DNA from: Paracoccus sp. IB05
Lineage (GTDB): Bacteria; Pseudomonadota; Alphaproteobacteria; Rhodobacterales; Rhodobacteraceae
Direction of reading: 5' to 3'
NCBI RefSeq assembly: GCF_016405985.1
Contig: NZ_JAEFCF010000050.1
Span: 1 to 38,517 of the forward strand
Length of the DNA stretch: 38,517 nucleotides
Numbering within the stretch: the first letter of the stretch is position 1; the number at the start of each line of letters is the position of its first letter. A program made the position numbers and the translations under genes. Under the pieces are notes generated by a model. The model ran no database searches. It was not told where the DNA came from and saw only the letters and a list, made by a program, of their open reading frames with translations. Shown in pieces: positions 18,923-38,517 of this stretch.

Positions 18923-18941
18923 GTTTCACCTGTGGAAGAGG

Positions 18942-18962: not shown

Positions 18963-18989
18963 GTCGGAAATGTGCAGGTTTGCAGCGGT

Positions 18990-20552: not shown

Positions 20553-20559
20553 GACTGGA

Positions 20560-21603: not shown

Positions 21604-21649
21604 CTTTACCTCCGTTGGTGGGTTCTCAATTGAATGCCGGTTGCCCCGG

Positions 21650-22996
21650 CTATTGTCCGTAAACCTGATGTGGCAGCCAAAGTGCGATCTCGGGGAAGAT
21701 CATGATCACGGCCAATGTCAGGATCATAATCGCGACAATCGGTACGATGGAGCGGTAAATATCGGAGAGTGAAACATGGTCCGGCGCCATGGCGCGCATC
21801 AGGAACAGGTTATAGCCGAAGGGCGGCGTGATATAGGCCACCTGGCAGGTGATGGTGTAAAGCACCCCGTACCAGATCAGCACATCCTGCGGCGGCATGC
21901 CGAGATCCAGTTTCGCGACCAGCGGAATATAGAGCGGCGCCACAATCACCAGCATGGCCGTGTCGTCAAGGAACATGCCCATAATCAGGAACGAGACCTG
22001 CATCAGGATCACGATGCCCCAGGGACCAAGGCCCAGATCCTCAAGGAAAAAGCCCTCGATGGCCCGCACGGCACCCAGCCCGTCGAAAACTGCGCCAAAG
22101 GCCATTGCCGCGAGCAGGATCCACATGAACATGCAGGTGACGCCCAGCGTATTGACGAGGCAGTTTTCCCAGACCTTTTTCGTGATACGTCCTTTGAACA
22201 GGGCGACCAGGGTGGCGATCAGCGCTCCGACCACCGAGGCCTCGACCAGGCTGACATAGCCCATCACGAAGGGACCCATCATCGAGGCAAAGATCACAAC
22301 CGGCAGGATCCCGGCGCGCAGCAGCCGGATTTTTTCGGCCCAGGTGATGGAGTTGCGCTCTTCTTGCGACAAAGCCGGGCCAAGCTTTGGGTTGATGCCG
22401 CAGCGGATCACCACATAAAGCAGGAAGAACCCGGCCATCAGCAGGCCCGGGAAGACCCCCGCCAGCCAGATCTGCCCGACCGGCTGGCGCGCGATCATCG
22501 AATAAAGCACCAGCACGATCGAGGGCGGCACCAGAATGCCCAGGGACGAGCCGCCCTGGATGATGCCGGTGACCATCCGCTTGTCATAGCCGCGCTTCAG
22601 AAGCTCGGGCAGGGCGATGGTGGCGCCGATGGCAAGACCTGCGACCGACAGCCCGTTCATGGCAGAGATCAGCACCATCAGGAGGATCGTACCAATCGCC
22701 AGACCGCCGGGGATCGGCCCGAACCAGACATGGAACATCTTGTAGAGGTCATCGGCGAGGCGCGCCTCGGACATCACATAGCCCATCCAGACGAACATCG
22801 GCAGGGTGAGCATCGGATACCAGTTCATCAGCTTGATGGTGGTGGTGAAGGCGATGTCATAGCCCCCCCGATCCCCCCAGAGTGCGATGGTGGCGACCAC
22901 GGCGACAAAACCGATGCCGGCAAAGACCCGCTGGCCGGTCATGAGCATGGCCATCATGCCCATGAACATGACGATGGCGATATATTCGTAGGGCAT
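21650..22996 (-). CDS. TRAP transporter large permease (DctM family)
   Basis: A 448-residue sodium-driven permease with about twelve helices and no signal peptide. Family motifs include MVLISAMNGLSVAGLAIG, GIIQGGSSLGILVPPSIVLVLYS, MGMFLDDTAMLVIVAPLYIP and QVAYITPPFGYNLFLM. It forms the transport channel with the DctQ subunit. Its ATG shares one base with the stop of the DctQ gene (TGATG at 22996), indicating translational coupling, and it precedes the binding-protein gene by 46 bases. Confidence 0.95.
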   Translation of the reverse strand: MPYEYIAIVMFMGMMAMLMTGQRVFAGIGFVAVVATIALWGDRGGYDIAFTTTIKLMNWYPMLTLPMFVWMGYVMSEARLADDLYKMFHVWFGPIPGGLAIGTILLMVLISAMNGLSVAGLAIGATIALPELLKRGYDKRMVTGIIQGGSSLGILVPPSIVLVLYSMIARQPVGQIWLAGVFPGLLMAGFFLLYVVIRCGINPKLGPALSQEERNSITWAEKIRLLRAGILPVVIFASMMGPFVMGYVSLVEASVVGALIATLVALFKGRITKKVWENCLVNTLGVTCMFMWILLAAMAFGAVFDGLGAVRAIEGFFLEDLGLGPWGIVILMQVSFLIMGMFLDDTAMLVIVAPLYIPLVAKLDLGMPPQDVLIWYGVLYTITCQVAYITPPFGYNLFLMRAMAPDHVSLSDIYRSIVPIVAIMILTLAVIMIFPEIALWLPHQVYGQ

Positions 22997-23502
22997 CAGA
23001 TTTTCACTCCGCGCAAAGTCGCAATGTCGCGGATGAGAAAGGCGATGGATTGCAGGATCATCAGGAAAACGCCGGTGCAGATCACGATCTTGATCGGTGC
23101 CATATAGGGCCGCCAGACGGTGCGGGACCGCTCACCGAATTCGAAGGAGTAGATCGTGCTTTCGATCCCGCCCCACAGGACGACGACGAGGAAGAAGATC
23201 ATGCAGAAAACGGTAACACAATCGACCAGGGCCTGGGTTTTCACACTCCAGCGGCCGTAAAGCAGGTCCATCCGCACATTGGCGCCAAGGATCAGCGAAT
23301 AGGCGCCGCCAAGGACGAAATAGCCGACCATGGTGAACTGGGCCATTTCCTGGGTCCAGAGCGCGGGGTGGAAAAACGCCTTTGCGATCACCGAGTACAG
23401 CAGGACGCCGGCCAGCGCGAAGATCAGATACATCGCGAGGCGGCCGATGACGGTGTTGATCTTTTCGATGATCAGCACGAGCCGGATAAAAAAGAGTGGC
23501 AT
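22996..23502 (-). CDS. TRAP transporter small permease (DctQ family)
   Basis: A 168-residue protein with four helices. It contains WTQEMAQFTMVGYFVLGGAY and GANVRMDLL, the conserved DctQ core. The start at 23500-23502 is chosen because GGAGG lies eight bases upstream and the protein begins directly before helix 1; the 40 extra codons upstream look non-coding. It is the first gene of the catabolic operon and is divergent from the RpiR regulator. Confidence 0.92.
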   Translation of the reverse strand: MPLFFIRLVLIIEKINTVIGRLAMYLIFALAGVLLYSVIAKAFFHPALWTQEMAQFTMVGYFVLGGAYSLILGANVRMDLLYGRWSVKTQALVDCVTVFCMIFFLVVVLWGGIESTIYSFEFGERSRTVWRPYMAPIKIVICTGVFLMILQSIAFLIRDIATLRGVKI

Positions 23503-23652
23503 CGGGTCAGCCTCCGCAGCCGGCAGGGAACAGAGGGCGACAGGCTTGACCCGCCTGGCAGAGCCGGCAGGAGGAGGATCCCGGAAAGGACATGGACGAG
23601 TCGGCTCCCTGATTTTTCCCAAGCGTCACCCTGTGGCGGGGGCGCTGTCAAG

Positions 23653-23682
23653 ATTATTTCAGAATGCTGTTTCCTGTTACAA
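23653..23682 (-). promoter_or_regulatory. Tentative promoter of the TRAP/gamma-glutamyl operon
   Basis: On the minus strand TTGTAA (23682-23677) and AATAAT (23658-23653) are 18 bases apart in the most A/T-rich part of the 254-base divergent spacer. A likely RpiR control region; the boxes are weak and no clear operator palindrome was found. Confidence 0.3.
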
Positions 23683-23756
23683 TCTTTTCTGCAACCCTGC
23701 CCGTGACATTTCCGGGGTAACGAAGCCCCGGGGGACGCTGCCGCAAAGGGGGACGC

Positions 23757-24635
23757 ATGGATCAGGGCCTGAGCATCGAAAACAGAATGCGGGCCTCGCT
23801 CAATGATCTGACCCGGGCCGAGCGCCAGGTCGCGACCCATATCCTGTCGCATTTTCCGATGTCGGCGCTTGGCTCGATCACTACGCTGGCGCGGGCGGCG
23901 GATGTGTCCTCGCCCACCATTGTGCGGCTGGTGCAAAAGCTGGGCTTCAAGGGCTGGTCGGATTACCAGGCGGCACTGCGGGTCGAAGTCGAAGACCTGC
24001 TCGTGACCCCGCTTGGCCCCCCCGGGGTGCCGGGAGAAGGGCGGAGCCACCCGCTCCAGGGCTTTGCCGCGCAGGTCGTGGCCAATATCGGCGCCACACT
24101 GAACCTGATCCCGGCGGCGGATTTCAACGGATCTGCGGCGCTGATGGCGGATATGTCGCGCCGCGTGGTGGTGATGGGCGGGCGGCTTACCCATGCGCTG
24201 GCCGATTACATGGCGACGCTGCTGAGGGTCATCCGCCCCGATGTCACCTGGATCGCCGACCACCTCACCGACTGGCAGCAGGCGCTGCTTGATCTCACGC
24301 CCGGCGATGTGGTGGTGATCTTTGACATTCGCCGCTACGAATCGAATGCGGTGCAATTTGCCGAATTCGCGGCGGCCCAGGGGGCCGAGGTGGTGCTGAT
24401 CACCGATCGCTGGCTTTCACCCGCGGCCTCGCATTCCCGCCATGTGCTGCCCTGCCATATCGAAATGCCCGCGGCCTGGGATTCGACCGCTGTGCTTTTG
24501 ATGGTGGTCGAGGCGCTTCTGGCGCAGATCCAGTCCCATATGCCGGATCAGGTCAGGGACCGGCTGAACCGGCTGGAAGATTGTTTTGCCCGCACCCGTG
24601 TCTTTCGCGCGCCGAAAATGGCCCAGGGGCGGTAA
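23757..24635 (+). CDS. RpiR/MurR-family transcriptional regulator
   Basis: A 292-residue regulator with an N-terminal RpiR helix-turn-helix (LTRAERQVATHIL, then ITTLARAADVSSPTIVRLVQKLGFKG) and a C-terminal SIS domain (about 125-260: RRVVVMGGRLTHALADYM, GDVVVIFDIRRYESN, VVLITDR). SIS domains classically bind phosphosugars, but RpiR regulators beside amine or TRAP clusters use other ligands. The ATG at 23757 follows AGGGGGA. Its divergent position to the TRAP operon makes it the probable local regulator. Confidence 0.9.
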   Translation: MDQGLSIENRMRASLNDLTRAERQVATHILSHFPMSALGSITTLARAADVSSPTIVRLVQKLGFKGWSDYQAALRVEVEDLLVTPLGPPGVPGEGRSHPLQGFAAQVVANIGATLNLIPAADFNGSAALMADMSRRVVVMGGRLTHALADYMATLLRVIRPDVTWIADHLTDWQQALLDLTPGDVVVIFDIRRYESNAVQFAEFAAAQGAEVVLITDRWLSPAASHSRHVLPCHIEMPAAWDSTAVLLMVVEALLAQIQSHMPDQVRDRLNRLEDCFARTRVFRAPKMAQGR

Positions 24636-26488: not shown

Positions 26489-27916
26489 TCAGTTCGCCTT
26501 CTGGATCAGCGCGATATGGTCGGCGGTCGCATCCTCGGCGCCGAGTGATTTGTTGGCGGCAAAGATATTGCCTTTCCCGTCACTCGCCACATGGTTCGGA
26601 TAGCTGCCGCCATCGAGATTGGCGACGACCTCGCCCTCGGGTGACACCACCGTTACCGTGCCTGCACCGCGGTTCGACACGAAAGCGAGCTTTTGCACCG
26701 GGTCAAACACCACATTCAGCGCGCCTGCGCCGGTGGTGACATCATGCTTCACCTCACCCGAGGCCAGATCGACGATCAGCAGGTTGTCGCTGTCTTGCGA
26801 GGCGACATAGATCGTGCCGGTCGCCGCGTCGAAATCGACGCCGGAGGCATTTTTCGCGCCCGGCAGCGGCAGGACCCGGGTCACGGTATTCGTGGTCAGG
26901 TCGATCTCCGCGAGCTCGTTCGATTTGCGGCTGACCGCGAAAAGGCGGTTGCCGTCCGGATCGACCGCGATGCTCATCAGCGAGAATTCCCCGCCGCGAA
27001 TGCCAGAGGTGATCTCGATAACCGCAACCTTCTCAAGGGTTTCGGTGTCGAACACATGCACGCCATTGGTGGCCGAGGCCGAGACATAGGCGCGGCCGCG
27101 CTTTGCATCCACCTTGACGTCGCGGGCATGATAGACCTCGCCCGGCGGGAATTGTTTGATCAGCGCCAGATCGTCCTGGGCATAGACCGCGACCGAATTG
27201 TCAAAGGTGTTGGTGCCCCAGATCGTGCCTTTCTCGTCATCGACCGCCAGGCCGAACAGCGCCACCGGCTGCGGGCCATTATCGGGCTGACCTTCCGCCG
27301 GCGCGCGGCGCTGGTCTTCGGGCAGGGGCGGCGGCGTGACTTCGGCGACCACGTCCAGCGTTTCCGGGTTCAGCTTCAGCAATGCAGCAGCCGGCGGCCG
27401 GAAATTCGCGGCGGCCACAAAGAGCGCATTCGATTTCGCGCTATAGACCGACTGATAGAGGCCGGGCGCCGATTTCACGCGGGTCACGCTGAACCCGTCC
27501 GCGCCCGAAAGCGGCACATCCTTTGACACTTTCACATCGAAAAGCGAGGTCGAGGAGGGCTGGTCCATGATGGCAATCACCGGATGCAGGCCGGTTGCGG
27601 CATCTGCGGGCAGGGTGAAGGTAAAGCTGACGGCGCCCTTGTCATCGGCGGTCAGGGCATCGCTGCTCAGGACCGTAGCGCCGCGTTGCAGCACGAGCGT
27701 CTGACCCGGTTTCAGGCCCGAGCCTTCGATGGTGACGCTGCTGCCGGGAAGAACGGGCTTGCCGGGTTCAGCGGGGACGACCCGGAATCGACCTTCGAAT
27801 TCCACCGGGGCGGGGAAGCTGTTTTCGGCGAAAACCGCGCCGGGCAGCGTGAGGGCCGCAAGCGTAAGCCCGAAGACAGATTTACGATAACCGTTTGTCA
27901 GGAAAGGGAAACCCAT
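26489..27916 (-). CDS. Exported YncE-like beta-propeller protein
   Basis: A 475-residue secreted protein. A signal peptide (basic NGYRKS, hydrophobic VFGLTLAALTLPGAVFA, cleavage before ENSFP) is followed by an Ig/IPT-like domain (about 45-140, with GSSVTIEGSGLKPGQTLVL). Then comes a seven-bladed propeller of YVTN/NHL type, seen in repeated strands such as GRAYVSASATNGVHVFDTE, NRLFAVSRKSNELAEIDL, GTIYVASQDSDNLLIVDL and KLAFVSNRGAGTVTVV. The start at 27914-27916 follows AGGAG by seven bases. It is divergent from the TonB receptor gene, echoing E. coli yncE beside yncD (pqqU). It may bind a ligand in the periplasm or assist the receptor; the function is unproven. Confidence 0.85.
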   Translation of the reverse strand: MGFPFLTNGYRKSVFGLTLAALTLPGAVFAENSFPAPVEFEGRFRVVPAEPGKPVLPGSSVTIEGSGLKPGQTLVLQRGATVLSSDALTADDKGAVSFTFTLPADAATGLHPVIAIMDQPSSTSLFDVKVSKDVPLSGADGFSVTRVKSAPGLYQSVYSAKSNALFVAAANFRPPAAALLKLNPETLDVVAEVTPPPLPEDQRRAPAEGQPDNGPQPVALFGLAVDDEKGTIWGTNTFDNSVAVYAQDDLALIKQFPPGEVYHARDVKVDAKRGRAYVSASATNGVHVFDTETLEKVAVIEITSGIRGGEFSLMSIAVDPDGNRLFAVSRKSNELAEIDLTTNTVTRVLPLPGAKNASGVDFDAATGTIYVASQDSDNLLIVDLASGEVKHDVTTGAGALNVVFDPVQKLAFVSNRGAGTVTVVSPEGEVVANLDGGSYPNHVASDGKGNIFAANKSLGAEDATADHIALIQKAN

Positions 27917-28408
27917 CACATGACTCCTGTTCAGATTGACCGAGAGGGACCGGCTGGAACCTGGCAGGTGCGGCGCAGGGCGCGGCGGCGGGGGACCGGA
28001 ATACCATGCGCGAAAGACCGCGAGCGGAGGGGGGATGTCAAGCTGCAATGACATTGCGGCCGGTCATCCGCCGCGCCGCGCGTTCTTTGCGGCTGGCCTC
28101 TCCTGTCGCTGACTGGCCCCGGCCAGCATAAGGCCCGGCCCGGCGCCAGGCACATGCCGAGGCCCGCCTGAGGCCGTTTACAGCAGCGGCGAGGGGGCAG
28201 AGTTACCCGGATGTCACACCGGTGCAACGCGAGGTTCCGGCAGCTGCATGGCAAATCTTGACAGTTACACCAGGATTAAGCAGTTATGCCCCGTGCCCAT
28301 GATCAGCCGGCAGACTCAGTTTGCAAGGCATCAGGACAGAAACAGGCACATCCGCCAGCATCCGACCGCCAGCGCTCTCCCAAAATTCTGACCCGAAGCG
28401 AGGCGGTA
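27917..28408. promoter_or_regulatory. Divergent control region of the receptor/reductase cluster
   Basis: A 492-base spacer between the divergent beta-propeller and TonB-receptor genes. It holds no convincing gene. A consensus -35 box TTGACA lies at 28258-28263 on the plus strand, with only weak -10 candidates about 17-18 bases on (around CAGTTAT). Several GC-rich inverted repeats occur at 28100-28170 (GGCCCCGGCC and GGCCCGGCCC stretches). I found no clear Fur, Irr or RirA box and no cobalamin riboswitch core. Confidence 0.4.
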
Positions 28409-30412
28409 ATGACTGGACGCAATTCATTGCGCGCGGCTCTTTTGAGCAGTTGCGCGCTTCTTTCCCCTGTGGCGGCACTCGCCCAGACGACCGGAGAGCC
28501 CGAGGCCCTCGGCACCATCATCCTGGACACCAAACGTGACGTGGCCACCCATACCGGCGTTGCGGTGACCACCATCGATCAGGAAGAGATGGATGACCGC
28601 CAGGCCTCGACCATCGCGGAGCTGATCTCCTCGGTGCCGGGGGTCACGCTGATCAACGGCGCGACGCCGCTTGGCGGCGGCATCAATATTCGCGGCTTTG
28701 GCGCCGGCAATACCTATGGCACCAACCAGAAGGTGCTGATCACCATTGACGGCGCGACGCAGGGCTCGGAAGAGCTCTATCGGATCGGCACGCAGCTGTT
28801 CACCGATCCGGAGCTGTTCAAAAGCGTTTCGGTGATGCGCGGCACCATCGGCAGTTTTGAATATGGCTCAGGCGTGGTCGGCGGCATTGTGCAGCTGGAA
28901 ACCAAGGATGCCTCGGATTTCACCGGCGGCGAGATCGGCTACAAGCTCCGCCAGGGGCTGAATTTCAACTCGAATGGCGACGGCATCACCTCTTCGACGA
29001 TCCTTGCCTGGCAGCCTTCGGAAAACGCAGAATTCGTGGCCAATTATATCTGGCGCCGCCTGGGGGAACAGGTTGATGGCAGCGGTGTCGACCTCGGTGC
29101 CGAAGGCTTCAAAACACCGTCCTGGGGTCTTAAGGGCAAGTTCACCTTCGGCCAGGAACGCGACCAGTTTGTCAGCCTCTCGCTGGCAAATACCACCATG
29201 GCCGAGCGCGACGTGCCCTATGACGCGATCGGGGGCAATCCCTTCGGCAATGTCGACCGCGATGTTGAAAGCCGCAACGCGGTGCTGACCTATGGGTGGA
29301 ATCCGCTCGACAATGACCTGGTCGACCTGCGGGTGGTCCTGTCCTATGCCGATCAGCAGATCGACAGCACCTCGGTGCCCTATGTCCCCACCGATGGGCT
29401 CAGGAATGCCGATCACCGCTATGAGACGACCAAGCTCACGGTGAAAAACACCGCGCGCTTCACCTTCGGCAGCATCGAAAACGAACTGCGCGCCGGTGTT
29501 GAACTCATCCGGAAAGAGCGCAAGACCGCCAGTTCGGCTCCGGGTGGCACGGATGACCGCACTGCCTTCTTCCTGATCAACAAATTCGATTTCGGCAACG
29601 GTCTGACCATCACGCCCGCGATGCGGTATGAGACCCAGGACATTTCGTACAAAGGCGATCCGCAGGCGCGCATCCCGGCGACCAGCTTTGACAATGACGC
29701 GCTGATGGGCGGCGTTGATATGCGTTACGAATTCGCCAATGGCGCAGCGGTGTTCGGCAGCGTGGCCTATACCGAAGGACTGCCGATCCTTGATGACTTC
29801 GAGAATCAGAACCAGCCCTGGATCGGCGGTTTGCCCGCCAATTACATGACCACCAACGAACAGTCGCGCACCGTTGAACTTGGTGCCTCCTGGCGGACGG
29901 CGGATCTCTTCTCGGCAGGAGATGCCTTCAGCATCAAAGGGAATATCTACGACACCAATGTCTGGAACGCGACTTCCGAGCCCAGCACGGCATGGATCGC
30001 GGGCACCGGGTTCGAGCTCGAGGCCGCCTATAGCATGGAAAGTGGCTATTACGGCGAACTCAGCACCAGCATTGTGAATTTCGAGTCAAAGACCATCCAG
30101 CTTGTGAACCGTTCGAACTATGCGCAGACACCGCCGAATTCGCTGCGTGTCGTCGCCGGGAAACGCTGGGACCGCGAACTCGATCTGAGCTGGGAAATGG
30201 TTGCCTATGACCGTTACGACGAATCGGTGATCCGTCCGGGCTTTGCCGTTCACAACCTGCGCGCAACCTACCGTCCGCAGGAAGGCGTGCTTGAAGGCAC
30301 CGAAATCCGCTTCGGCGTCGAGAACCTCTTCGACCGCGATTACATGCAGGCGCTGGCCACCCGCAACGGCCCGGGCCGCAACTTCAAGGTTGGTATTATC
30401 AAGACCTTCTGA
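28409..30412 (+). CDS. TonB-dependent outer-membrane receptor
   Basis: A 667-residue receptor. It has a signal peptide (LRAALLSSCALLSPVAALA, cleavage after AQ), a candidate TonB box GTIILDT, and a plug domain (IAELISSVPGVTLINGA, INIRGFG, VLITIDGATQG, SVSVMRGTIGSFEYGSGVVG) whose end GGIVQLETKDASDF resembles heme/transferrin/lactoferrin receptors. A beta-barrel follows and ends in aromatic Phe, as outer-membrane proteins do. GAGG lies before the ATG at 28409; an upstream frame to 28286 lacks a ribosome site. It leads the EF-hand/DUF2271/PepSY/ApbE/reductase genes. The substrate is probably a ferric or heme-type chelate, but this is not shown. Confidence 0.92.
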   Translation: MTGRNSLRAALLSSCALLSPVAALAQTTGEPEALGTIILDTKRDVATHTGVAVTTIDQEEMDDRQASTIAELISSVPGVTLINGATPLGGGINIRGFGAGNTYGTNQKVLITIDGATQGSEELYRIGTQLFTDPELFKSVSVMRGTIGSFEYGSGVVGGIVQLETKDASDFTGGEIGYKLRQGLNFNSNGDGITSSTILAWQPSENAEFVANYIWRRLGEQVDGSGVDLGAEGFKTPSWGLKGKFTFGQERDQFVSLSLANTTMAERDVPYDAIGGNPFGNVDRDVESRNAVLTYGWNPLDNDLVDLRVVLSYADQQIDSTSVPYVPTDGLRNADHRYETTKLTVKNTARFTFGSIENELRAGVELIRKERKTASSAPGGTDDRTAFFLINKFDFGNGLTITPAMRYETQDISYKGDPQARIPATSFDNDALMGGVDMRYEFANGAAVFGSVAYTEGLPILDDFENQNQPWIGGLPANYMTTNEQSRTVELGASWRTADLFSAGDAFSIKGNIYDTNVWNATSEPSTAWIAGTGFELEAAYSMESGYYGELSTSIVNFESKTIQLVNRSNYAQTPPNSLRVVAGKRWDRELDLSWEMVAYDRYDESVIRPGFAVHNLRATYRPQEGVLEGTEIRFGVENLFDRDYMQALATRNGPGRNFKVGIIKTF

Positions 30413-30419
30413 TCCATCC

Positions 30420-30447
30420 GGGCCGGCCGTCTGACGATGGCTGGCCC
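30420..30447 (+). terminator. Hairpin after the TonB-receptor gene
   Basis: GGGCCGGCC pairs with GGCTGGCCC (one G-U pair) around a ten-base loop, starting eight bases past the receptor stop. The following CTCTTT is only a weak T-tract, so partial termination or transcript stabilisation is likely, setting receptor levels apart from downstream genes. Confidence 0.5.
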
Positions 30448-30503
30448 GCTCTTTCCCGGCCGGGACCCCGGCCAGACCACAGCCAGAGGAACGGAGTCCC
30501 CCC

Positions 30504-31118
30504 ATGGCCGACCGCAGCAAAACCACCCTGAGCCTCAGCCTCGCGCTGATCGTGGCCCTGTCCGGCGCCGCTTTCGCGCAAAGCGAAGAGACCACAGCCG
30601 CCGAATCCGGCACCAAGACCGAAACGGCGACCGACAATCCGGGCGATGCCTCGCCGAAGCCGGGCATAGCCGGCGGCCACAGCCAGGCGGCCTTCATCGC
30701 CTCTTATGACAAAGATGGCGACGGCAAGGTCTCGCTTGACGAGCTGATCGAGGTGCGGACCGAGCGTTTCCGGGGTGCCGATAAGGATGGCGATGGCAAG
30801 CTCAATGAGGCGGAATATGTCGCCGAATTCGAGGGTCGCCTGCGCCAGCAATATGCTGATCAGGGGCGCGATCCGAGCGGTGAGCGTTTTGAGGCCAGCC
30901 TGAAACAGGCCGCTGTGCGGTTCGCGCTGCTCGACCGTGACCGGGACGGGTTCCTGTCGCTGGAAGAAGATCTCGACTCCGCCCGCAAGACTTTTGCCCG
31001 CAATGACACCGATGGCGATGGCTTCGTCTCGGCCGCCGATCCGGCACCTGTCCGCGAGGATGACGGCAATGATCAGGCCGCTAAGAAAGACGAGAAAAAG
31101 GACGGCGCTGCGAACTGA
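30504..31118 (+). CDS. Periplasmic protein with four EF-hands
   Basis: A 204-residue exported protein. The signal peptide (LSLSLALIVALSGAAFA, cleavage after AQ) is followed by a Thr/Glu-rich linker and four EF-hand loops: residues 69-80 (DKDGDGKVSLDE), 93-104 (DKDGDGKLNEAE), 144-155 (DRDRDGFLSLEE) and 168-179 (DTDGDGFVSAAD, with Asp instead of Glu at position 12). The first two have ideal Ca-binding residues. The tail is Lys/Asp-rich. It probably binds calcium in the periplasm and may regulate or scaffold the neighbouring receptor and redox proteins. None of the loops has proline at position 2, so it does not look like a lanmodulin. A GGAG precedes the ATG. Confidence 0.88.
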   Translation: MADRSKTTLSLSLALIVALSGAAFAQSEETTAAESGTKTETATDNPGDASPKPGIAGGHSQAAFIASYDKDGDGKVSLDELIEVRTERFRGADKDGDGKLNEAEYVAEFEGRLRQQYADQGRDPSGERFEASLKQAAVRFALLDRDRDGFLSLEEDLDSARKTFARNDTDGDGFVSAADPAPVREDDGNDQAAKKDEKKDGAAN

Positions 31119-31134
31119 TCGCAGCCCCGTCCCT

Positions 31135-31175
31135 GGCCTCGCGGCGGGTGAAGGCTTCCCGCCCGCCGCGAGGCC
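31135..31175 (+). terminator. Strong intergenic hairpin between EF-hand and DUF2271 genes
   Basis: GGCCTCGCGGCGGG pairs with CCCGCCGCGAGGCC, a 14-bp GC-rich stem with a short loop. The following CTTATGCCGCTTTT holds a late T-run. It may terminate part of the transcription, so the DUF2271-PepSY-ApbE-reductase genes could be expressed at a lower level or from another promoter. Confidence 0.55.
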
Positions 31176-31220
31176 CTTATGCCGCTTTTGCTCCCCGGGT
31201 GTTGATGATGACTGGTGCTG

Positions 31221-31766
31221 ATGATGACAGATGACAATGCCCGCCCGATGCCGGCGGCACGCCTGGCCGTTGCCGCGACGCTGGCGCTGGTGAGCGGCCC
31301 GGCTCTGGCCGCCGGGCTGGAATTCGAGGTGACGCTGCCGCAGCCCGAGGCCAGCCCTGCCTACCGCCCCTATCTCGCGGCCTGGATCGAAGAGCCGGGC
31401 TCGAAAGAGATCCGTGGCACCGTGGCGGTCTGGTATGACACAAGGCTGCGCGACAATCTTGGCCGCGGCTTCCTGCGCGATCTGCGCAGCTGGTGGCGGG
31501 CCGAGGGCGAAAAGCTTGATCTTCCGGCCGATGGGCTGAGCGGGCCGACGCGTGGCCCCGGCACCCATAAAGTTGCGGTCGCCCCTGAAAATGCCGTGCT
31601 CACCGGGCTGAGCGCCGGCGACTATGTGCTGGCGGTCGAGGTCTCGCGCGAGGATGGCGGGCGGGAAACCCTGCGCGCGCCCTTCAGCTGGGGCGGCGCC
31701 GAAAACAGCGCCGAGGCGACCGGCGAACGTGAGATCACCCGGTTGAAAGTGACCGCGAAACCCTGA
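31221..31766 (+). CDS. DUF2271 periplasmic protein with ApbE flavinylation motif
   Basis: A 181-residue exported protein (starts at 31221 or the next ATG at 31224; no strong ribosome site). The signal peptide RLAVAATLALVSGPALAA precedes a beta-rich DUF2271 domain: AWIEEPGSKEIRGTVAVWYD, LRDLRSWWR, then DGLSGPTRGPGTH. The last segment fits the ApbE target motif D-x-x-S/T-G-A-T, with Pro in place of Ala; the threonine would carry the FMN phosphoester. DUF2271 is reported as an ApbE substrate in comparative work on extracytosolic flavinylation. The neighbours PepSY, ApbE and reductase supply the electron path and the modifying enzyme. It likely acts as a soluble periplasmic flavoprotein electron carrier. 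Confidence 0.85.
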   Translation: MMTDDNARPMPAARLAVAATLALVSGPALAAGLEFEVTLPQPEASPAYRPYLAAWIEEPGSKEIRGTVAVWYDTRLRDNLGRGFLRDLRSWWRAEGEKLDLPADGLSGPTRGPGTHKVAVAPENAVLTGLSAGDYVLAVEVSREDGGRETLRAPFSWGGAENSAEATGEREITRLKVTAKP

Positions 31767-31780
31767 GGAAAGGGCAGCTT

Positions 31781-32416
31781 ATGCAAGCAGACAATCTGCT
31801 GGCGACAGCTTCGGGGCGCAGCTTCTGGCTGCGCCAGTTCCGTTTGTGGCACTGGGTTTCCGCAGCGATCAGCCTTGCGGGGATGTTCCTGTTCGCGGTC
31901 ACCGGCTTTACGCTTAACAATGCCGGCCTCTTCGCCACGCGCCCCGAGACGGTCGAGCAAAGCGCGAGCCTGCCGCCTGACCTTCTGGCCGCGATCAGTA
32001 CAATGCCGGAAGAGGGCGAGACCCCGGTGCCTGCTTCTGTCGCCGCCTGGGCGGCCGGTGAGTTTCGCGTGACGCTTGATCATCGCCCGACCGAGACCAA
32101 TGCCGGTGAGGTCTATATCGCCTTGCCGCGCCCCGGCGGCGACGCCTGGCTGGCCATTGACCGCGCCAGTGGCGATGTCACCTACCGGCTGACCGATGGG
32201 GGCTGGCTGGCCTGGCTCAATGATCTGCATAAGGGCCGCAATGCCGGGCCGGTCTGGTCCTGGTTTATCGACCTGCTGGCGCTGGCCTGCGTCATCTTCA
32301 CCCTCACCGGCTTTGCGCTGCTCTGGATGCATGCGAAATCGCGCCCGGCCACCTGGCCGCTCGGCTGGGCGAGTTTTGCTCTGCCGCTGATCATCGCGCT
32401 TTTGTTCATCCATTAG
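31781..32416 (+). CDS. PepSY-family three-helix membrane protein
   Basis: A 211-residue inner-membrane protein. Helix 1 (about 24-46, after LRQFRLWHW) ends in TGFTLNN, a PepSY-associated motif. A periplasmic PepSY domain follows (about 55-140, VYIALPRPGGDAWLAIDRASGD region given in parts: VYIALPRPGG, WLAIDRASGDV). Then come LNDLHKGRNAGPVWSW, helix 2 (about 160-183) and helix 3 (about 192-210), ending at the residue FIH. Histidines 24, 150 and 184 lie at helix ends and could hold heme or other cofactors. PepSY proteins of this type are proposed transmembrane electron conduits. AGGAAAGGG precedes the ATG. Its TAG stop is in the same frame as ApbE, four codons upstream of it. Confidence 0.85.
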   Translation: MQADNLLATASGRSFWLRQFRLWHWVSAAISLAGMFLFAVTGFTLNNAGLFATRPETVEQSASLPPDLLAAISTMPEEGETPVPASVAAWAAGEFRVTLDHRPTETNAGEVYIALPRPGGDAWLAIDRASGDVTYRLTDGGWLAWLNDLHKGRNAGPVWSWFIDLLALACVIFTLTGFALLWMHAKSRPATWPLGWASFALPLIIALLFIH

Positions 32417-32428
32417 GGCCGGTCCGCG

Positions 32429-33466
32429 ATGCAAACCCTGTCGCGCAGCCGCGTTATCCTGCCGCCTCTGGTGGCCCGGGGGCCGGTTCTGCCGCCGCCG
32501 CCCGGCTGGGTCGAGACCCGTCTTGTGGGCGAGACCATGGGCACAAACTGGTTGCTGATCGCCTGGGCGCCGCCCGGCGCGGGCCCCGGGCTGCAGCACC
32601 TGGTCGAGACGGAATGCGCGCGGGTGATTGCGCTCTTCAGCCCCTGGGCCCCGGAAAGCGAGGTCTCGCGCCTGCATCGCAACCGGGCAGGAGCGGCGGA
32701 GCTGTCTGACGGCTTTCTGGCGCTGCTCACGCCGCTTTTGCAGCTGGTGTCTGAGACCGGAGGTGCTTCGGATCCGACGCTGGGCGCGCTGGTCGATCTC
32801 TGGGGCTTTGGCCCGCCGGGGCCGCGTCCCGCCCATATTCCGCTGCCACAGCCGCCAGAGATCGCGCAGGCGCGCGAACTCAGCGGCCATGCGCGGCTGC
32901 GGCTCGAGGGCACCCGGCTGCATTTCCCGCCGGGGTTGCGGTTCGATTTCAGCGGCAGTGCAAAGGGCCATGCCGTCGATCTGGTCAGCGCGCGCCTGAC
33001 GGAGGCCGGGATCGGCTCGCATCTGATTGAAATCGGCGGGGAATTCTACGGTCGTGGCCTCAGGCCCGATATGCGGCCCTGGTGGGTCGGGATCGAATCT
33101 CCGCCGGGGGGGCTCCGTAACGGCCAGCGCCCGCCGGTGATCGCGCTGAACGGCTGGGGGCTGGCAAGCTCGGGCGATTACCGGCGCGGCTTTCAGCATG
33201 GCGGGCGCCGCTATGCCCATACGATCGACCCCGCGACCGGCTGGCCGGCGGAAAATGACCTCGCTTCGGTCTCGGTGCTGGCGCCAACGGTGATGCAGGC
33301 CGATGCCCTGGCGACGGCGCTTCTGGTGCTGGGGGCTGTGCGCGGCATGGCATTTGCGCGCATCGCCGGGATTGCCATCGTGATGATCCGGCGCGGGCCG
33401 GAAGGTGCAGTGACCGAAGTTTCCCCCGCCTTGCAGGAGATGCTCGACGATGATCCTCAGCGTTGA
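32429..33466 (+). CDS. apbE: FAD:protein FMN transferase (ApbE)
   Basis: A 345-residue Mg-dependent enzyme that transfers FMN from FAD onto Thr/Ser of target proteins. Motifs visible are RLVGETMGTNW, SPWAPESEVSRLHRN, FDFSGSAKGHAVDLV (a variant of the usual GxIAKGYAVD), LIEIGGEFYG, ASSGDYRR, HTIDPATGWP and QADALATALLVLG, the metal-binding end. The start is fixed on the upstream side by an in-frame TAG only 12 bases before the ATG. Remarkably, no Sec signal or lipobox is present; the N-terminus is SRSRVILPPLVARGP. The adjacent DUF2271 protein is the probable substrate. The 3' end overlaps the reductase gene by 17 bases. Confidence 0.93.
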   Translation: MQTLSRSRVILPPLVARGPVLPPPPGWVETRLVGETMGTNWLLIAWAPPGAGPGLQHLVETECARVIALFSPWAPESEVSRLHRNRAGAAELSDGFLALLTPLLQLVSETGGASDPTLGALVDLWGFGPPGPRPAHIPLPQPPEIAQARELSGHARLRLEGTRLHFPPGLRFDFSGSAKGHAVDLVSARLTEAGIGSHLIEIGGEFYGRGLRPDMRPWWVGIESPPGGLRNGQRPPVIALNGWGLASSGDYRRGFQHGGRRYAHTIDPATGWPAENDLASVSVLAPTVMQADALATALLVLGAVRGMAFARIAGIAIVMIRRGPEGAVTEVSPALQEMLDDDPQR

Positions 33467-34787
33467 TCCGCTGCACTGGACGATGGCGGCGCTGACCGGT
33501 GCCGCCTGGTCCGGGCTCACAGTCCGGACCCTGATCCGTGCGCGGCGGGCGGGGCAGGCGGCAGCGGTGGCCGGTCCGGGCGGTCTCCTGATCGGTTATG
33601 CCAGCCAGAGCGGCAGTTCCGAGGCGCTGGCGCGCGCTGCCGCTGCGCAATCTCCGGGCGCGCGTCTTTTGTCGCTGGACCAGATCGGGGCAGCGGATCT
33701 CGCCAGCACGGCGCAGGCGCAATTCTACATCAGCACCACCGGCGATGGCGACGCGCCCGACAATGCCACGGGTTTCCTTGCGCGCGTGATGAGCCTGCGC
33801 CCGGAGCTTGGCAGGCTCAGCTATGCGATGCTCGCACTGGGCGACCGGAACTATCCGCGCTTTTGCGGTTTTGCGCATCGGCTGGACCAATGGCTGCGGG
33901 CCTGCGGCGCCACGCCCCGTTTCCCGCTGACCGAGGTCGATCGCGACCAGCCGACCGCGCTTGCCACCTGGCGCGCCCGGATGGGGGAGCCCACGCGCAC
34001 CGGAGCGCCGGCTCCGGGCATCGCACCCGAATCCACGCGGTGGAGTCTGGCGGCGCGGCACCATCTGAACCCCGGCAGCCCGGGCGGCCCGCTCTGGCAT
34101 CTGGTGCTGGACCCCGAAGGCCCCCTGCCGGACTGGCGGGCCGGGGATATCGCTGAAATCAGCATCCCCACCCAAGACGGTCCGGTCAGACGCGACTATT
34201 CGCTGGCCTCGCTGCCGGTCTCCGGGCGCGCTGAACTGATTCTGCGCGAGGTGATCTCCCGCGAGGGCCGTCCCGGTCTCGGCTCGCACTGGCTCTGCCG
34301 GCAGCTGGGCGAGGGCGATGCCATTGACCTGTCGATCCGCGCCAATCCCGGTTTTCATGCCGCGGATGACGCGATGCCGATGCTGCTTATTGGCAATGGC
34401 TCGGGTCTGGCGGGCCTGCTGGCGCATCTGCGCCACCGCGTGGCCCAGAAGGCAAGCGGCCCGGTCTGGCTGATCCATGGCGAGCGCAGCCCGGACCATG
34501 ACGCTGTTTTCACAGAGGAACTTTCCGGTCTTGTGGCCATTGGCGGGCTTGCGCGTCTTGACCGCAGCTTCTCGCGCGGGGGGGAAGGGCCGCGCTATGT
34601 GCAGCATATCCTGCGCGCGGCGGCGACGGAGGTAAGGGCGCATGTCGCCGCCGGTGGCGGTATCTGGATCTGCGGTCGGCGTGAGGGGATGGCCACAGAT
34701 GTGCAGCAGGCGCTGGAAGACGTGCTGGGCCAGGACGAGACCGCGCGCCTGATGACAGAGCGCCGTCTGCGCCGGGATATCTATTGA
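33450..34787 (+). CDS. Membrane-anchored flavodoxin/FNR-type flavoprotein reductase
   Basis: A 445-residue protein resembling the sulfite reductase flavoprotein or cytochrome P450 reductase. One N-terminal helix (about 8-26) anchors it, with basic RTLIRARR after it favouring a cytosolic catalytic part. A flavodoxin domain follows: IGYASQSGSSEALA, ISTTGDGDAPDNA, LALGDRNYPRFC. Next is an FNR-like domain with the FAD motif RRDYS (247-251), then the NAD(P) site LLIGNGSGLAGLLA, YVQHILR and ICGRREGMATDV, ending RRDIY. It probably moves electrons from NADPH through FAD and FMN to the PepSY membrane protein. It is the last gene in the operon. Confidence 0.9.
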   Translation: MILSVDPLHWTMAALTGAAWSGLTVRTLIRARRAGQAAAVAGPGGLLIGYASQSGSSEALARAAAAQSPGARLLSLDQIGAADLASTAQAQFYISTTGDGDAPDNATGFLARVMSLRPELGRLSYAMLALGDRNYPRFCGFAHRLDQWLRACGATPRFPLTEVDRDQPTALATWRARMGEPTRTGAPAPGIAPESTRWSLAARHHLNPGSPGGPLWHLVLDPEGPLPDWRAGDIAEISIPTQDGPVRRDYSLASLPVSGRAELILREVISREGRPGLGSHWLCRQLGEGDAIDLSIRANPGFHAADDAMPMLLIGNGSGLAGLLAHLRHRVAQKASGPVWLIHGERSPDHDAVFTEELSGLVAIGGLARLDRSFSRGGEGPRYVQHILRAAATEVRAHVAAGGGIWICGRREGMATDVQQALEDVLGQDETARLMTERRLRRDIY

Positions 34788-35282: not shown

Positions 35283-35358
35283 GGGCCCGTAGCTCAGTTG
35301 GTAGAGCAACTGACTTTTAATCAGTGGGTCACAGGTTCGAATCCTGTCGGGCTCACCA
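35283..35358 (+). tRNA. tRNA-Lys (anticodon TTT)
   Basis: A 76-base cloverleaf with encoded CCA. Acceptor GGGCCCG pairs with CGGGCTC (one G-U); the D arm is GCTCAGTTGGTAGAGC. The anticodon loop CTTTTAA has anticodon TTT at 35316-35318, and the T arm is ACAGG-TTCGAAT-CCTGT. The discriminator is A at 35355. tRNA 3' ends are common phage integration sites, and phage-like genes follow. Confidence 0.97.
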
Positions 35359-35617: not shown

Positions 35618-36010
35618 TCAGGCGCTTTGGCTGCGGGTCAGGCCCAGGACCATCAGCGCGGCCTGAGGGTCATCACCGATCACCGCCGCGATTCGGGCCG
35701 GTGCGGCGAATGGTTCGGGCATGACCTCGGGATCCTCGGGCGGCTGCCAGATCGCGATCAGGGCCTGCGCACGGGCGGCGGCGGCCATGTCGGCGCCCCA
35801 GGCGGACGCGATCAGAGGCGAGACTGCATCCGTCAGATAGACGCCGGCCACCAGCCCCGAGGCCACGCGGCAGAGGTTGCCTGCCGCGTCGCGGTATTCG
35901 GGCGCGAGGGTGAAGGTGAGTTCATCCTCCGGACCATAGCCGGTGGCGCGGCTGAATTGCGCCGCGTCGGCCAGATGCGCCACCCGGCATGCGATGGTGA
36001 TCCTGATCAT
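35618..36010 (-). CDS. Phage-associated hypothetical protein
   Basis: A 130-residue soluble, acidic/Ala-rich protein starting MIRITIACRVAHLADAAQF. No domain is recognised. The ATG at 36008-36010 overlaps the stop of the upstream gene (TCAT on the plus strand, an ATGA overlap), which fixes the start and ties it to the tail-fibre operon. The middle segment includes LTFTLAPEYRDAAGNLCRVASG, seen only in parts here: EYRDAAGNLCRVASG and YLTDAVSPLIASAWGAD. It is the last gene before the tRNA-proximal edge. Probably a structural accessory or tail-associated protein; function unknown. Confidence 0.65.
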   Translation of the reverse strand: MIRITIACRVAHLADAAQFSRATGYGPEDELTFTLAPEYRDAAGNLCRVASGLVAGVYLTDAVSPLIASAWGADMAAAARAQALIAIWQPPEDPEVMPEPFAAPARIAAVIGDDPQAALMVLGLTRSQSA

Positions 36011-37122
36011 GCGGCATATCTCCCGGCCCAATAGCTGCGGATCTGCGCCTCTTCGGCGGAAGTGAACGTGCCCTGGCGCAAGATCACATCGGCCTGACGT
36101 TCAGCCCTGAGCAGATCGACCGGCGTAGTGCCGTCCGAGGTCACAGAGCTGACGGTCATTTCCCCGAGAACATCGACCCAGGCAAGGCCATATGTGCCAG
36201 CCGGAACCGGGGTAGCGTCCAGACTGTCGCCGCCATCACTCCACAGATACCAGACCTCGGGATTTCCGGTCTCAGTGACATCATTGGCCGCAGCAACGTG
36301 CTGATAAGGGCTCACAAGCGGTGCTTTCTCGATCTGCACCTTTCCCGCCCGAATGGTGAAACTCCAATCGGCAGTTGCCGCGGTGAACCTCAGATAGGTC
36401 AGTATGTGCGCAACAGGCCCGGAACCCACAGGCCCCTGCGAGTCCAGGAAAGTCTCCGGGCCGGTTATGACCCGACTGCGACCGGATGAAGGCAGTGGAG
36501 TGACCATCCCCCCGGATTTGTTCCCGCCGCCCGCCACACGCGACGACTGCTGAATGGCGAGCTGCTGCACGTTACGCGCGTCGAGCAATTCGCAATCAAA
36601 GCTGGAAACCCAGGCCTGACCATCAGAAGCGGCCACGCTGGTATTGCCATGCAAGTTGATGAAGAAGGCACCGGTGGTAGTCCCGCTGAACCGGATTACG
36701 GATATGTCGTCCTCAACCGCTATGACCTCACGACCTGCGGAAGAGGTCCAGCCGGTCGGCAGCGCGCCGGGCTGACCGGACCCGATCAACCCAGGAGCTG
36801 CACCGACACCCGACGCGGGCACAACATTCCTGCGCCCGCCTTTCGGCCAACGCGCCAGCGTCGGGCGAGAGAGCGCCGTGGCCTGCGAGGCGTTGACCGA
36901 TCCCACGAGGCGCCGCACCAGTCCGACAGGCTGATCAGGGAGGATTGCGGGCACAGTGCCGGCGCTGTCTAGCGACAGGCGGCCCGCCGCAGGATCATGC
37001 CCGCCCTGCCAGTGACCCGCAGGACCGGCGGCAAAGAGGTGCGATGGGGTGAAGGTCTCCGGGTCAGGCCCGCCGGCGACCGCCTTGCCCGCCCCACTGA
37101 AGGCGCGGAAGGGCTTAAACAT
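36007..37122 (-). CDS. Phage tail fibre/spike-like protein
   Basis: A 371-residue protein. It starts MFKPFRAFSGAGK; an upstream 21-codon extension overlaps the preceding gene and is less likely. Pieces such as LVGSVNASQATALSRPTLARWPKGG, quoted in part as ALSRPTLARWPKGGRRN, are followed by a beta-sandwich carbohydrate-binding-like region (FINLHGNTSVAAS, YLRFTAATADWSFTIRAGKV, APLVSPYQ) similar to phage spike or fibre proteins. The C-terminus DVILRQGTFTSAEEAQIR resembles tail-fibre ends. It overlaps both neighbours. It probably recognises a surface glycan; the host receptor is unknown. Confidence 0.7.
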   Translation of the reverse strand: MFKPFRAFSGAGKAVAGGPDPETFTPSHLFAAGPAGHWQGGHDPAAGRLSLDSAGTVPAILPDQPVGLVRRLVGSVNASQATALSRPTLARWPKGGRRNVVPASGVGAAPGLIGSGQPGALPTGWTSSAGREVIAVEDDISVIRFSGTTTGAFFINLHGNTSVAASDGQAWVSSFDCELLDARNVQQLAIQQSSRVAGGGNKSGGMVTPLPSSGRSRVITGPETFLDSQGPVGSGPVAHILTYLRFTAATADWSFTIRAGKVQIEKAPLVSPYQHVAAANDVTETGNPEVWYLWSDGGDSLDATPVPAGTYGLAWVDVLGEMTVSSVTSDGTTPVDLLRAERQADVILRQGTFTSAEEAQIRSYWAGRYAA

Positions 37123-37402
37123 GGCTGACCGAGATCTCGCCGCCCGAGGCAGACCAGACCCAGACATGATCTGCGCCGGCCACACCTGGGAAAAGCTGCG
37201 CCAGCGGCCGGTCGGGCAGGATCGCCTCCTGATAGCCGAGGCTCAGCGCGCCCATGGCATTCACCGGCTCGGCCGTGCCGGCGGTGGCCTGCACCTCGAG
37301 CGCCTCAAGGCCCCGGTTTTGCAGCCGGAGCGCGGTGATGGCGGCGCTGGTGACGCGGGTCCAGGCGCGCGGCTGGATCTGAAGGGTGGCGTGTTGCGGC
37401 AA
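37115..37402 (-). CDS. Small phage-structural protein, TTG start
   Basis: A 95-residue beta-rich protein with no recognised domain name. The TTG start at 37402 has AGGAG seven bases upstream and lies one base after the previous stop, a convincing layout for a rare start codon. Text such as LQIQPRAWTRVTSAAITALRL and GADHVWVWSASGGEISVSHV, seen in parts, resembles small proteins that accompany tail fibres in Rhodobacteraceae prophages. It overlaps the next gene by eight bases. Confidence 0.65.
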   Translation of the reverse strand: MPQHATLQIQPRAWTRVTSAAITALRLQNRGLEALEVQATAGTAEPVNAMGALSLGYQEAILPDRPLAQLFPGVAGADHVWVWSASGGEISVSHV

Positions 37403-37403
37403 G

Positions 37404-37931
37404 TCAGGTCTCCTGAGGGGTAAGGGTGGCGATGGCCGCCGTGATGTCTTCGGGGCTCTCAGCGGCGGCGATGGCGCCCTGTGTCGAGAGGCGCAGCGCC
37501 TCGAGGCCGGCGGCGGCAGATCGCCAGAGATCGGCCATATTGAGCCAGAGCTGCGCCAGCTGATCCGGGTCTGGCGCGGTGATCCCGGTCTCGGCCGAGA
37601 GCAGCGGGAAGGCTGCGAGATCGGGATCCGTGGCCCCGACCCAGGCGCGCGCCTCGGCCTCTTTGGCGAGATAGATCATATCCTGCCCCGGCAGCGCGGT
37701 GATCAGCCCGGCGCGGGCACGGGTGATGGCGGCGGTCAGCGCGACCCGGGCCACCTGGCGCAGCGGCTCGAGCGAGGTCCGGACCAGTTCACCGCCGATC
37801 ACCGCCCAGCCGGTAAGATCGCCCAGAACCTCCGCCGTCAGATCCGTCCCGATATACTCGCCCGGCAGGTCGGCCGCGCAGCTCAGAGTATAGAGGATCC
37901 GGCCATCCGCCGGGTCATACCAGATCCGCAT
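37404..37931 (-). CDS. Phage tail fibre assembly-like protein
   Basis: A 175-residue protein. The N-terminus MRIWYDPADGRILYTLS is a short beta module; the C-terminal half is mostly helical with Ala-rich stretches (EAEARAWVGATDPDLAAFP, AQLWLNMADLWRS). This two-part layout recalls tail-fibre assembly or DUF4376-type phage proteins; the identity is tentative. Its ATG shares one base with the stop of the upstream gene (TGATG), and its stop precedes the TTG start of the next gene by one base. Confidence 0.6.
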   Translation of the reverse strand: MRIWYDPADGRILYTLSCAADLPGEYIGTDLTAEVLGDLTGWAVIGGELVRTSLEPLRQVARVALTAAITRARAGLITALPGQDMIYLAKEAEARAWVGATDPDLAAFPLLSAETGITAPDPDQLAQLWLNMADLWRSAAAGLEALRLSTQGAIAAAESPEDITAAIATLTPQET

Positions 37932-38517
37932 CAGCCCCAGCTCCCCATCGCATAGAAGGCATAAAAGACGGTGTAGCTGGCCTCGCCGCCCGTATAGGTC
38001 GGGGTCTGGCTGCTGATCAGCGTGGAGGAGCCGTCCTGATAGGCCCGCACCACAGTGCCGGGCGAGAGCGTGACATAGCCGAGGCCGATCCCGTTGGCGG
38101 CAGTGTTGCGGTGCAGGATCCAGAGCCCGGCGCCAAGGTTCGGAAAACTGCCGCTTCCCGCAGTGACAAAGGAGCCTGTCGCGGTCGGCTCAAGTGGCAC
38201 CACATCGGCCTTCACATCGCGCGCGGCGCTATAGGACATGACCACCCGGCCCGGCGTTCCCGGATCCCCGGAATTCCAGCCCGCGCCGCCGGCCCCGGGC
38301 AGGCCACCGGCCCCGACAACGACCCTGATCCGGGGCGAGGCATAGCCGCTCAGATCGATCCAGCCGGTGACAACCGCAGCCGCAGCCCATCCGCCCTGGG
38401 ACGGAACTCCGCCGCTGCGCTCAGGCCGTCTTTGCCGCCGCTGCCCCAGGCCGCGCCATCGGTGACCTTCCCCCACGGAGTGGACCGATTGGTTTGTTAG
38501 TGGATTAAGCCCATCGC
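37931..38517 (-). CDS. Glycine-rich phage tail protein, partial at window edge, possible frameshifts
   Basis: The frame is open from the stop at 37931 to the window edge; a GTG at 38476 is the first start-like codon, but the gene probably continues outside. The C-terminal half (GGLPGAGGAGWNSGDPGTPG, SYTVFYAFYAMGSWG) is typical of glycine-rich fibre tips. The first part in this frame reads as Arg-rich GHRWRGLGQRRQRRPERSGG, whereas the neighbouring minus frame over 38400-38470 reads the phage-like VTDGAAWGSGGKDGLSAAAE with better third-position G/C. One or two frameshifts, by mutation or sequencing error, are therefore suspected. Confidence 0.55.
   Translation of the reverse strand, partial: DGLNPLTNQSVHSVGEGHRWRGLGQRRQRRPERSGGVPSQGGWAAAAVVTGWIDLSGYASPRIRVVVGAGGLPGAGGAGWNSGDPGTPGRVVMSYSAARDVKADVVPLEPTATGSFVTAGSGSFPNLGAGLWILHRNTAANGIGLGYVTLSPGTVVRAYQDGSSTLISSQTPTYTGGEASYTVFYAFYAMGSWG

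Follow-up and report, generated by a model that had tools for sequence, protein, structure and literature searches.

A conserved gene cluster linking a heme-receptor-type TonB receptor to a candidate flavin-dependent periplasmic iron reductase in Paracoccus sp. IB05

In a 38517-base contig of the 5.3-Mb genome of Paracoccus sp. IB05 (NZ_JAEFCF010000050.1; this whole stretch of DNA is called the window here), six genes on the (+) strand at 28409-34787 encode, in order, a TonB-dependent receptor, an EF-hand protein, a DUF2271 protein, a PepSY_TM protein, ApbE and a flavodoxin-type reductase. We propose, with a probability of roughly 0.62, that this cluster specifies a periplasmic reductase, coupled to TonB and dependent on flavin, that serves iron acquisition and is tied to a TonB receptor of the heme-receptor type.

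The initial annotation had placed six genes in this interval. The open reading frames (ORFs) bear out their coordinates and strand and Pfam bears out the families, the matches of all six products exceeding the curated cut-offs. The receptor gene (28409-30412; Plug 5.3e-19), whose longest ORF begins at 28286, was assigned the ATG at 28409, which precedes a signal-like segment. It is followed by the genes for an exported EF-hand protein with four loops (30504-31118; EF-hand_1 7.3e-18), the periplasmic DUF2271 protein, a predicted flavinylation substrate (31215-31766; PF10029 4.2e-32, 111.2 bits), the inner-membrane PepSY_TM_like_2 protein (31781-32416; PF16357 3.3e-69), the flavin adenine dinucleotide (FAD):protein flavin mononucleotide (FMN) transferase ApbE (32429-33466; PF02424 5.5e-69, 233.1 bits) and a CysJ-like flavodoxin/NAD(P)H reductase of the diflavin type (33450-34787; Flavodoxin_1 9.9e-21, NAD_binding_1 8e-6). 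Because the gaps between the genes are short (91, 96, 14 and 12 bp) and the last pair overlaps by 17 bp, the six genes likely share one transcript. A whole-genome search found a single copy each of PepSY_TM_like_2 and ApbE. Divergent from the receptor gene, on the (-) strand at 26489-28054, lies a gene for a YncE-like seven-bladed beta-propeller that is likely exported; the two genes have their upstream region (28055-28408) in common.

Scanning genome_contigs with an alignment of EF-type DUF2271 proteins returned 23 loci, 20 with an EF-hand gene adjoining the DUF2271 gene and three (Variovorax) of a DUF4198 type. Those 20 together with the window, G007 and G012 form the EF-type set (n=23; 11 rhodobacterial and 12 burkholderial loci), which comprises six loci of the window's genus, very likely Pseudogemmobacter (the window, G007, G012, L058, L060 and L074), and the loci L059, L061, L062 to L073, L075, L077 and L080. 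At all 23, the EF-hand gene adjoins the DUF2271 gene and the receptor gene lies immediately upstream, in keeping with the earlier suggestion that receptor and EF-hand protein belong to one unit. The full order of receptor, EF-hand, DUF2271, (propeller), PepSY, ApbE and reductase, whose conservation across genomes had been put forward as a check, held in 16 of the 23 loci, from Paracoccaceae and Comamonadaceae and so from two bacterial classes; since it recurs this often in the clade, the order is not due to chance. Counted among the 16 are G004, which is split across two contigs, L061, whose last gene is cut by the contig end, and L053 (G012), which has frame breaks in the receptor, EF-hand and ApbE genes, possibly from assembly error. 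L073 was counted outside the ordered loci as its contig ends. At L058 the PepSY gene is truncated and ApbE and the reductase were not found after it, and at L059 the front of PepSY is fused to the back of the reductase, without ApbE.

The EF type is a minority variant among DUF2271 loci. In less biased samples, 15 of 289 genomes of alphaproteobacteria and 13 of 150 of Burkholderiales had a DUF2271 score above the cut-off, and none of the 14 + 12 loci fetched from them (the window and the chosen center excluded) was of the EF type; 8 + 9 were of the DUF4198 type, and the rest were L101, other arrangements or loci that the profiles used did not resolve. PepSY_TM_like_2 was present in 6 of 13 genomes of the window's genus and, at E <= 0.001, in 9 of 295 family-wide genomes, with only the window and one other above 180 bits and the rest below 36, a patchy spread that suggests gain and loss. 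A mixed arrangement outside the EF group was seen at L101 (8413-16293), where PepSY-DUF2271-ApbE-reductase is followed by a receptor, DUF4198 and an EF-hand-family gene, this relative of the EF-hand gene lying about 6 kb away. L102 and L115 hold ApbE, DUF2271 and PepSY with a DUF4198 relative, and at L103-L105, L116 and L117 the profiles used found only the reductase and ApbE, though the Pfam search gave DUF2271.

Phylogenetic analysis revealed that the EF-linked DUF2271 proteins form a group of their own. In an unrooted maximum-likelihood tree of 51 of 52 rows (L051 was omitted as a near copy), a branch with 100/100 support separates all 22 EF-linked rows from the remaining 29, of which 27 are DUF4198-linked and 2 are of other kinds; most EF rows came from the scan that targeted the EF group, and their number says nothing on frequency. 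Neither the window nor any stretch fetched for the 23 EF-type loci had a match to DUF4198. Gene content, gene order and this grouping of DUF2271 are solid.

The DUF2271 protein had been described as carrying a DGLSGPT motif for FMN attachment. The motif is present at 31530-31550, and its last Thr (T112), the predicted FMN site, is conserved in all 51 DUF2271 rows that cover the column; what needs correction is its form, the window having SGPT as against SGA[S/T], where the flavinylation motif of PepSY/DUF2271/ApbE systems reads [S/T]GA[S/T]. The residue before the final Thr is Ala in 12 and Pro in 10 of the 22 EF rows and Ala in 18 and Pro in 11 of the 29 others. Because either residue occurs there in both groups, the Pro does not appear to be a special defect. 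For the DUF2271 protein of A. ursilacus, flavinylation on the motif Thr was demonstrated by mutation (PMC8238504; here and below, papers are cited for the passages that we drew on).

The remaining core proteins fit an electron path across the inner membrane. The window PepSY protein scored 233.3 bits with PF16357 (cut-off 27) and has three hydrophobic segments; all 26 aligned sequences, that of the window among them, keep His24, His150 and His211, and these three residues fit the known heme-binding PepSY protein (PMC11334425). The reductase resembles the flavoprotein subunit of sulfite reductase (NCBIfam cysJ, 156.9 bits against a cut-off of 668), and its N-terminal hydrophobic anchor is weak in the window and clearer among relatives. 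As far as sequences go, the path from reductase through PepSY to DUF2271, with ApbE, that the initial annotation had drawn is supported by the Pfam families and by their conservation as one unit. In the mechanism that we infer, NADPH would reduce the CysJ-like flavoprotein at the inner membrane, and electrons would cross the membrane via one or more hemes held by PepSY to an FMN that the neighboring ApbE would have attached covalently to Thr112 of DUF2271. The flavo-DUF2271 protein would then reduce the ferric iron of a cargo imported via the receptor. Our proposals for the two accessory proteins are guesses: the EF-hand protein could be a calcium-stabilized partner that docks the cargo, or the periplasmic side of the receptor, to DUF2271, and the propeller could be a periplasmic cargo binder.

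The propeller, absent from the initial annotation, is likely a further component of the system. It passes the Pfam YNCE cut-off (31.8 bits against 27.1) and stays below that of NCBIfam YncE (90 bits against 400); in a Foldseek search with its AF2 model (pLDDT 85.8), E. coli YncE ranked first (TMt 0.85). Its likely start is near 27916, and it has an N-terminal beta-rich (Ig-like) domain, an addition to the fold of E. coli YncE that characterizes the rhodobacterial propellers. A propeller gene was observed near the EF-hand/DUF2271 pair in 17 of the 23 EF-type loci and in none of the DUF4198-type loci fetched. In Paracoccus siganidrum and all but one of the six loci of the window's genus, it adjoins the receptor gene in divergent orientation. 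In L060 (on the opposite strand) and three Pseudooceanicola it lies past the reductase. In seven Comamonadaceae it immediately follows DUF2271, with PepSY next in six of them and the contig of the seventh (L073) ending there. The Comamonadaceae propellers are 25-29% identical to that of the window and appear to be related proteins of the same kind, not close orthologues.

The EF-hand protein has its loops in two pairs, at residues 69-80 and 93-104 and at residues 144-155 and 168-179. The two loops of a pair are separated by 12 residues and the pairs by 38-41 (in 2 of the 18 sequences the last loop escaped the pattern), and a GGH motif ahead of the first loop is invariant in the 18 aligned sequences. 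Because of these loops, the protein is likely to bind calcium. The N-termini of the burkholderial proteins, judged by eye, resemble a lipoprotein signal (LSAC or similar). Members of this family also occur near heme-type receptors without an EF-type DUF2271, at L101 (112 bits), L122 (138 bits) and L123 (115 bits), as compared with at most 46 bits for control bacterial EF-hand proteins. The receptor at L122 scores 399.1 bits with TIGR01785, above the heme cut-off, and those at L101 and L123 score 224.1 and 203.9 bits, below it. The EF-hand family is linked to heme-type receptors of three lineages. We also considered the EF-hand protein as a simple replacement of DUF4198; L101, L122 and L123 weaken this idea, since each has the two genes together near a heme-type receptor.

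For the window receptor, the best profile is that of heme/hemoglobin receptors (TIGR01785, 218.8 bits), as compared with 91 bits for the siderophore model, and the nearest solved structure is ShuA (6.5e-17), followed by other heme receptors and by transferrin receptors. Among the rhodobacterial EF-locus receptors, five of 11 were run on NCBIfam and all had TIGR01785 as best match (218.8-245.5 bits; cut-off 316.85); of the 12 burkholderial ones two were run, and both pass TIGR01786 (L066 at 348 and L062 at 335 bits, cut-off 323.75). The L066 receptor is nearest to the heme receptor PhuR (6.2e-57) and carries an STN signaling domain. In contrast, at the DUF4198-type loci L048 and L049 the receptors score above the cut-off of the siderophore model. 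In a receptor tree, the window receptor groups with a Leisingera receptor that has no EF-hand gene and adjoins genes for a heme ABC transporter and a ChuX/HutX-family protein. The EF-linked label does not form one group in this tree (3 changes; 58 of 500 shuffles as low), and the EF-hand genes are therefore not bound to one receptor lineage. The earlier suggestion of a metal chelate as the cargo thus holds in part: iron is the likely metal, but a generic chelate receptor is not what the nearest profile and structures indicate, these being heme/hemoglobin receptors. Heme or a hemoprotein is a plausible cargo.

Iron reduction is well supported by analogy with published relatives. PepSY-like clusters with ApbE, DUF2271 and DUF4198 have been described, 231 PepSY-like clusters having a TonB receptor, and extracytosolic iron reduction was proposed for them (PMC8238504); DUF2271 and DUF4198 also occur beside iron-responsive receptors (PMC7190382). 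In Caulobacter, CC_3059-3063 encode PepSY, DUF2271, DUF4198, ApbE and a sulfite reductase flavoprotein, and their expression rises both under iron limitation and when Fur is lost (PMC3751524); Fur binds their promoter (PMC3751524, PMC12004947), and transposon insertions in them lower fitness under EDTA (PMC12004947). This operon has the same electron-transfer core as the window, but no receptor or EF-hand gene is listed for it in the passages cited. Such genes are found elsewhere in Caulobacter: CC_2193, beside the hemin receptor CC_2194, is induced by iron limitation (64.8-fold) and Fur loss (167.7-fold), and its entry covers an EF-hand ORF and a DUF4198 ORF, to the latter of which the authors credit the induction, so that these fold values do not stand for the EF-hand ORF by itself (PMC3751524). 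HutA is named a hemin transporter, by citation, in PMC12004947. Judged from the published layout (PMC3751524), this hutA region resembles the window in having an EF-hand gene beside an iron- and Fur-regulated heme receptor, and similar layouts are present in Sphingobium L122 and Novosphingobium L123. Whereas Caulobacter keeps the flavin core at a separate locus, the window's group holds everything in one cluster. HiuABC of Caulobacter and FoxB of Pseudomonas aeruginosa likewise join a TonB receptor to PepSY for reductive iron release, but with a hydroxamate siderophore as the cargo, and DUF2271 has no occurrence in the text of PMC13001220 covered here.

The initial annotation had considered the gene combination little described. 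This is true only in part, as the PepSY/DUF2271/ApbE core has been published along with its connection to TonB receptors and iron (PMC8238504, PMC7190382, PMC12004947), and so has an EF-hand gene beside an iron-regulated heme receptor (PMC3751524). With the system of PMC8238504, the window shares the PepSY, DUF2271 and ApbE cluster; it differs from what is described there in lacking DUF4198, in having an EF-hand gene beside DUF2271, in placing DUF2271 before PepSY and in the linked propeller. The term 'EF-hand' has no occurrence in the main text of that paper, a count that covers neither the spelling 'EF hand' nor the supplements, whose tables could list clusters of this sort. In the cited passages we found neither the propeller, nor the EF-linked DUF2271 group, nor all the genes in a single cluster. 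The separate EF-linked DUF2271 group and the heme-type best profile of the receptors tested look new, and the fixed association of the core with an EF-hand protein, a propeller and a heme-type receptor looks like a little-described variant; absence of such a cluster from print is not established, an 'EF-hand' search having missed PMC3751524, where the spelling is 'EF hand'.

Regulatory sequences were searched in 25 upstream regions. A TTGACA-containing stretch at 28258-28285, upstream of the receptor gene, is conserved in the loci of the window's genus and looser in P. siganidrum and could be a promoter; the sigma-70 scan found 2 sites against 1.1 expected. Fur-like sites stood out at L068 (15/19; 0 of 200 shuffles as good) and L063 (14/19, p about 0.010), and L058 and L061 reached 12/19 (p 0.010 and 0.005), all uncorrected for the 25 regions. 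The sequence TGA-N9-TCA occurs once each at L059, at L067 and upstream of fecI in L063, and twice at L060. Upstream of the receptor gene, four burkholderial loci have genes for sigma-like (extracytoplasmic function, ECF) and FecR-like proteins, by Pfam for one pair, and two of these four have Fur-box-like sites. Because of such ECF-sigma/FecR-like genes upstream of some Comamonadaceae receptors and because the Caulobacter relatives are Fur regulated (PMC3751524), iron is the likely metal.

Several observations weigh against the iron reductase that we propose. The window receptor lies below the TIGR01785 cut-off (218.8 against 316.85), and the FRAP/NPNL region of ShuA, which we take to be a motif of heme/hemoglobin receptors, is not conserved in it. 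HemS (PF05171) had no match in the window's genome, rated 100% complete, while the E. coli control was detected; FeoB_C (PF07664) had none either, with the control detected in 7 genomes. We thus saw neither the customary route for heme in the cytosol nor the customary importer of ferrous iron. The Fur and Irr consensus scans gave no significant match in the window. ApbE has no convincing signal peptide, by hydropathy, in the window or at the other loci examined, so that either DUF2271 would need to receive its FMN ahead of export or ApbE would leave the cytosol by an unrecognized route; the lack of a convincing signal is common to the ApbE proteins of EF-type and DUF4198-type clusters, though the presumed substrate is exported. 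The propeller was not seen near the pair in six of the 23 loci (L061, whose contig ends in the reductase, L062, L064, L075, L077 and L080). At L064, L075, L077 and L080 the fetched stretch has no PepSY, ApbE or reductase gene, and their genomes hold PepSY-DUF2271-DUF4198 at a separate place. Two degenerate copies of the cluster were found, and the system is therefore dispensable.

Some of these points would suit a receptor that had departed from the heme function of its relatives, the cargo being a ferric siderophore or other iron chelate and uptake otherwise resembling that of HiuABC and FoxB. The missed TIGR01785 cut-off, the unconserved FRAP/NPNL region and the missing HemS are consistent with such a cargo, as are the FecI/FecR-type genes at some burkholderial loci, the occurrence of PiuC near the DUF4198 form in 9 of 23 DUF4198-type loci fetched with flanks, the two DUF4198-form receptors that pass the siderophore model and the service of PepSY systems to siderophores (PMC13001220). 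Against it, the receptors linked to the EF-hand family had a heme-type profile as the best match in 10 of 10 cases tested. The FRAP/NPNL region is also missing from the L122 receptor and from the Leisingera receptor, which stands in a heme-uptake context; its absence is thus compatible with heme, and we dropped it as decisive evidence against that cargo. On balance a siderophore or other chelate is possible but somewhat unlikely. A bolder version of the heme cargo, which we hold only tentatively and with still less confidence, is that covalently flavinylated DUF2271 acts on the iron of heme or hemoproteins: heme would enter the periplasm via the heme-type receptor and, rather than being imported for cytosolic breakdown, would be reduced there by flavo-DUF2271 with electrons from NADPH, a dedicated calcium-binding protein and the propeller handling the heme. 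Compatible with this version are the missing HemS, the lack of a match in the window's genome to a HmuS-like protein in a search run without a control, and the link of the EF-hand family to heme-type receptors of three lineages.

It is also conceivable that the operon reduces something besides iron, such as copper, or serves redox repair of proteins or the envelope, with the receptor merely a neighbor. A PepSY_TM protein is reportedly linked to copper oxidase function in Bordetella (PMC13038864), and three Acidovorax loci and one Burkholderiales metagenome-assembled genome have the receptor-EF-DUF2271 part by itself. A mere neighbor is hard to reconcile with a receptor gene immediately upstream in 23 of 23 loci, and in Caulobacter Fur controls both modules (PMC3751524); we regard a non-iron substrate as improbable. 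A lanthanide or calcium system, in which the receptor would feed a lanmodulin-like EF-hand carrier, was suggested by lanmodulin being both the top NCBIfam match of the EF-hand protein (38.4 bits) and its only Foldseek match at E <= 0.001 (8fns, 7.2e-4, TMt 0.62; model pLDDT 74.6). The 38.4 bits compare with a LanM cut-off of 135, however, and the redox chain would have no obvious use for a trivalent lanthanide. Lanmodulin has Pro at loop position 2 and 12-13 residues between adjacent loops. Of 70 loops examined, none has Pro at position 2 and 2 have Asp at position 9. The 12-residue spacing does match lanmodulin but is ordinary: among 24 control EF-hand ORFs found with the window EF-hand query, 15 showed at least two loops, and all 15 have it as their first gap. 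We rejected the lanthanide reading on the cut-off, the loop residues and the spacing control, and consider it highly improbable.

Elsewhere in the window, a tRNA-Lys lies at 35283-35358, beside (-) strand ORFs of unknown function that run from 35618 to 38476 at the contig end. Of four that were tested, one (37407-37931) hits a phage protein family whose function is unknown (3e-17), and this end is possibly a prophage edge. A tRNA-Ser called by ARAGORN at 15690-15779 (+) falls inside a (-) strand gene for an FAD-dependent oxidoreductase (15048-16310; Pfam DAO 5.8e-60) and is probably spurious. The genes at 17540-24635 encode an aldehyde dehydrogenase, a glutamine-synthetase-like enzyme, a DctP-type solute-binding protein and an RpiR-type regulator and look like genes of amine or amino-acid catabolism.

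How iron is released from its carriers in the periplasm is mostly unknown, and few substrates have been assigned to DUF2271/PepSY systems. The compact, conserved cluster described here ties such a system to a receptor type whose likely ligands, heme and hemoproteins, can be purchased, and thereby makes the question of the flavo-DUF2271 substrate directly testable. A periplasmic EF-hand family and a YncE-like propeller, neither with a role known to us, also gain a genetic context from it.

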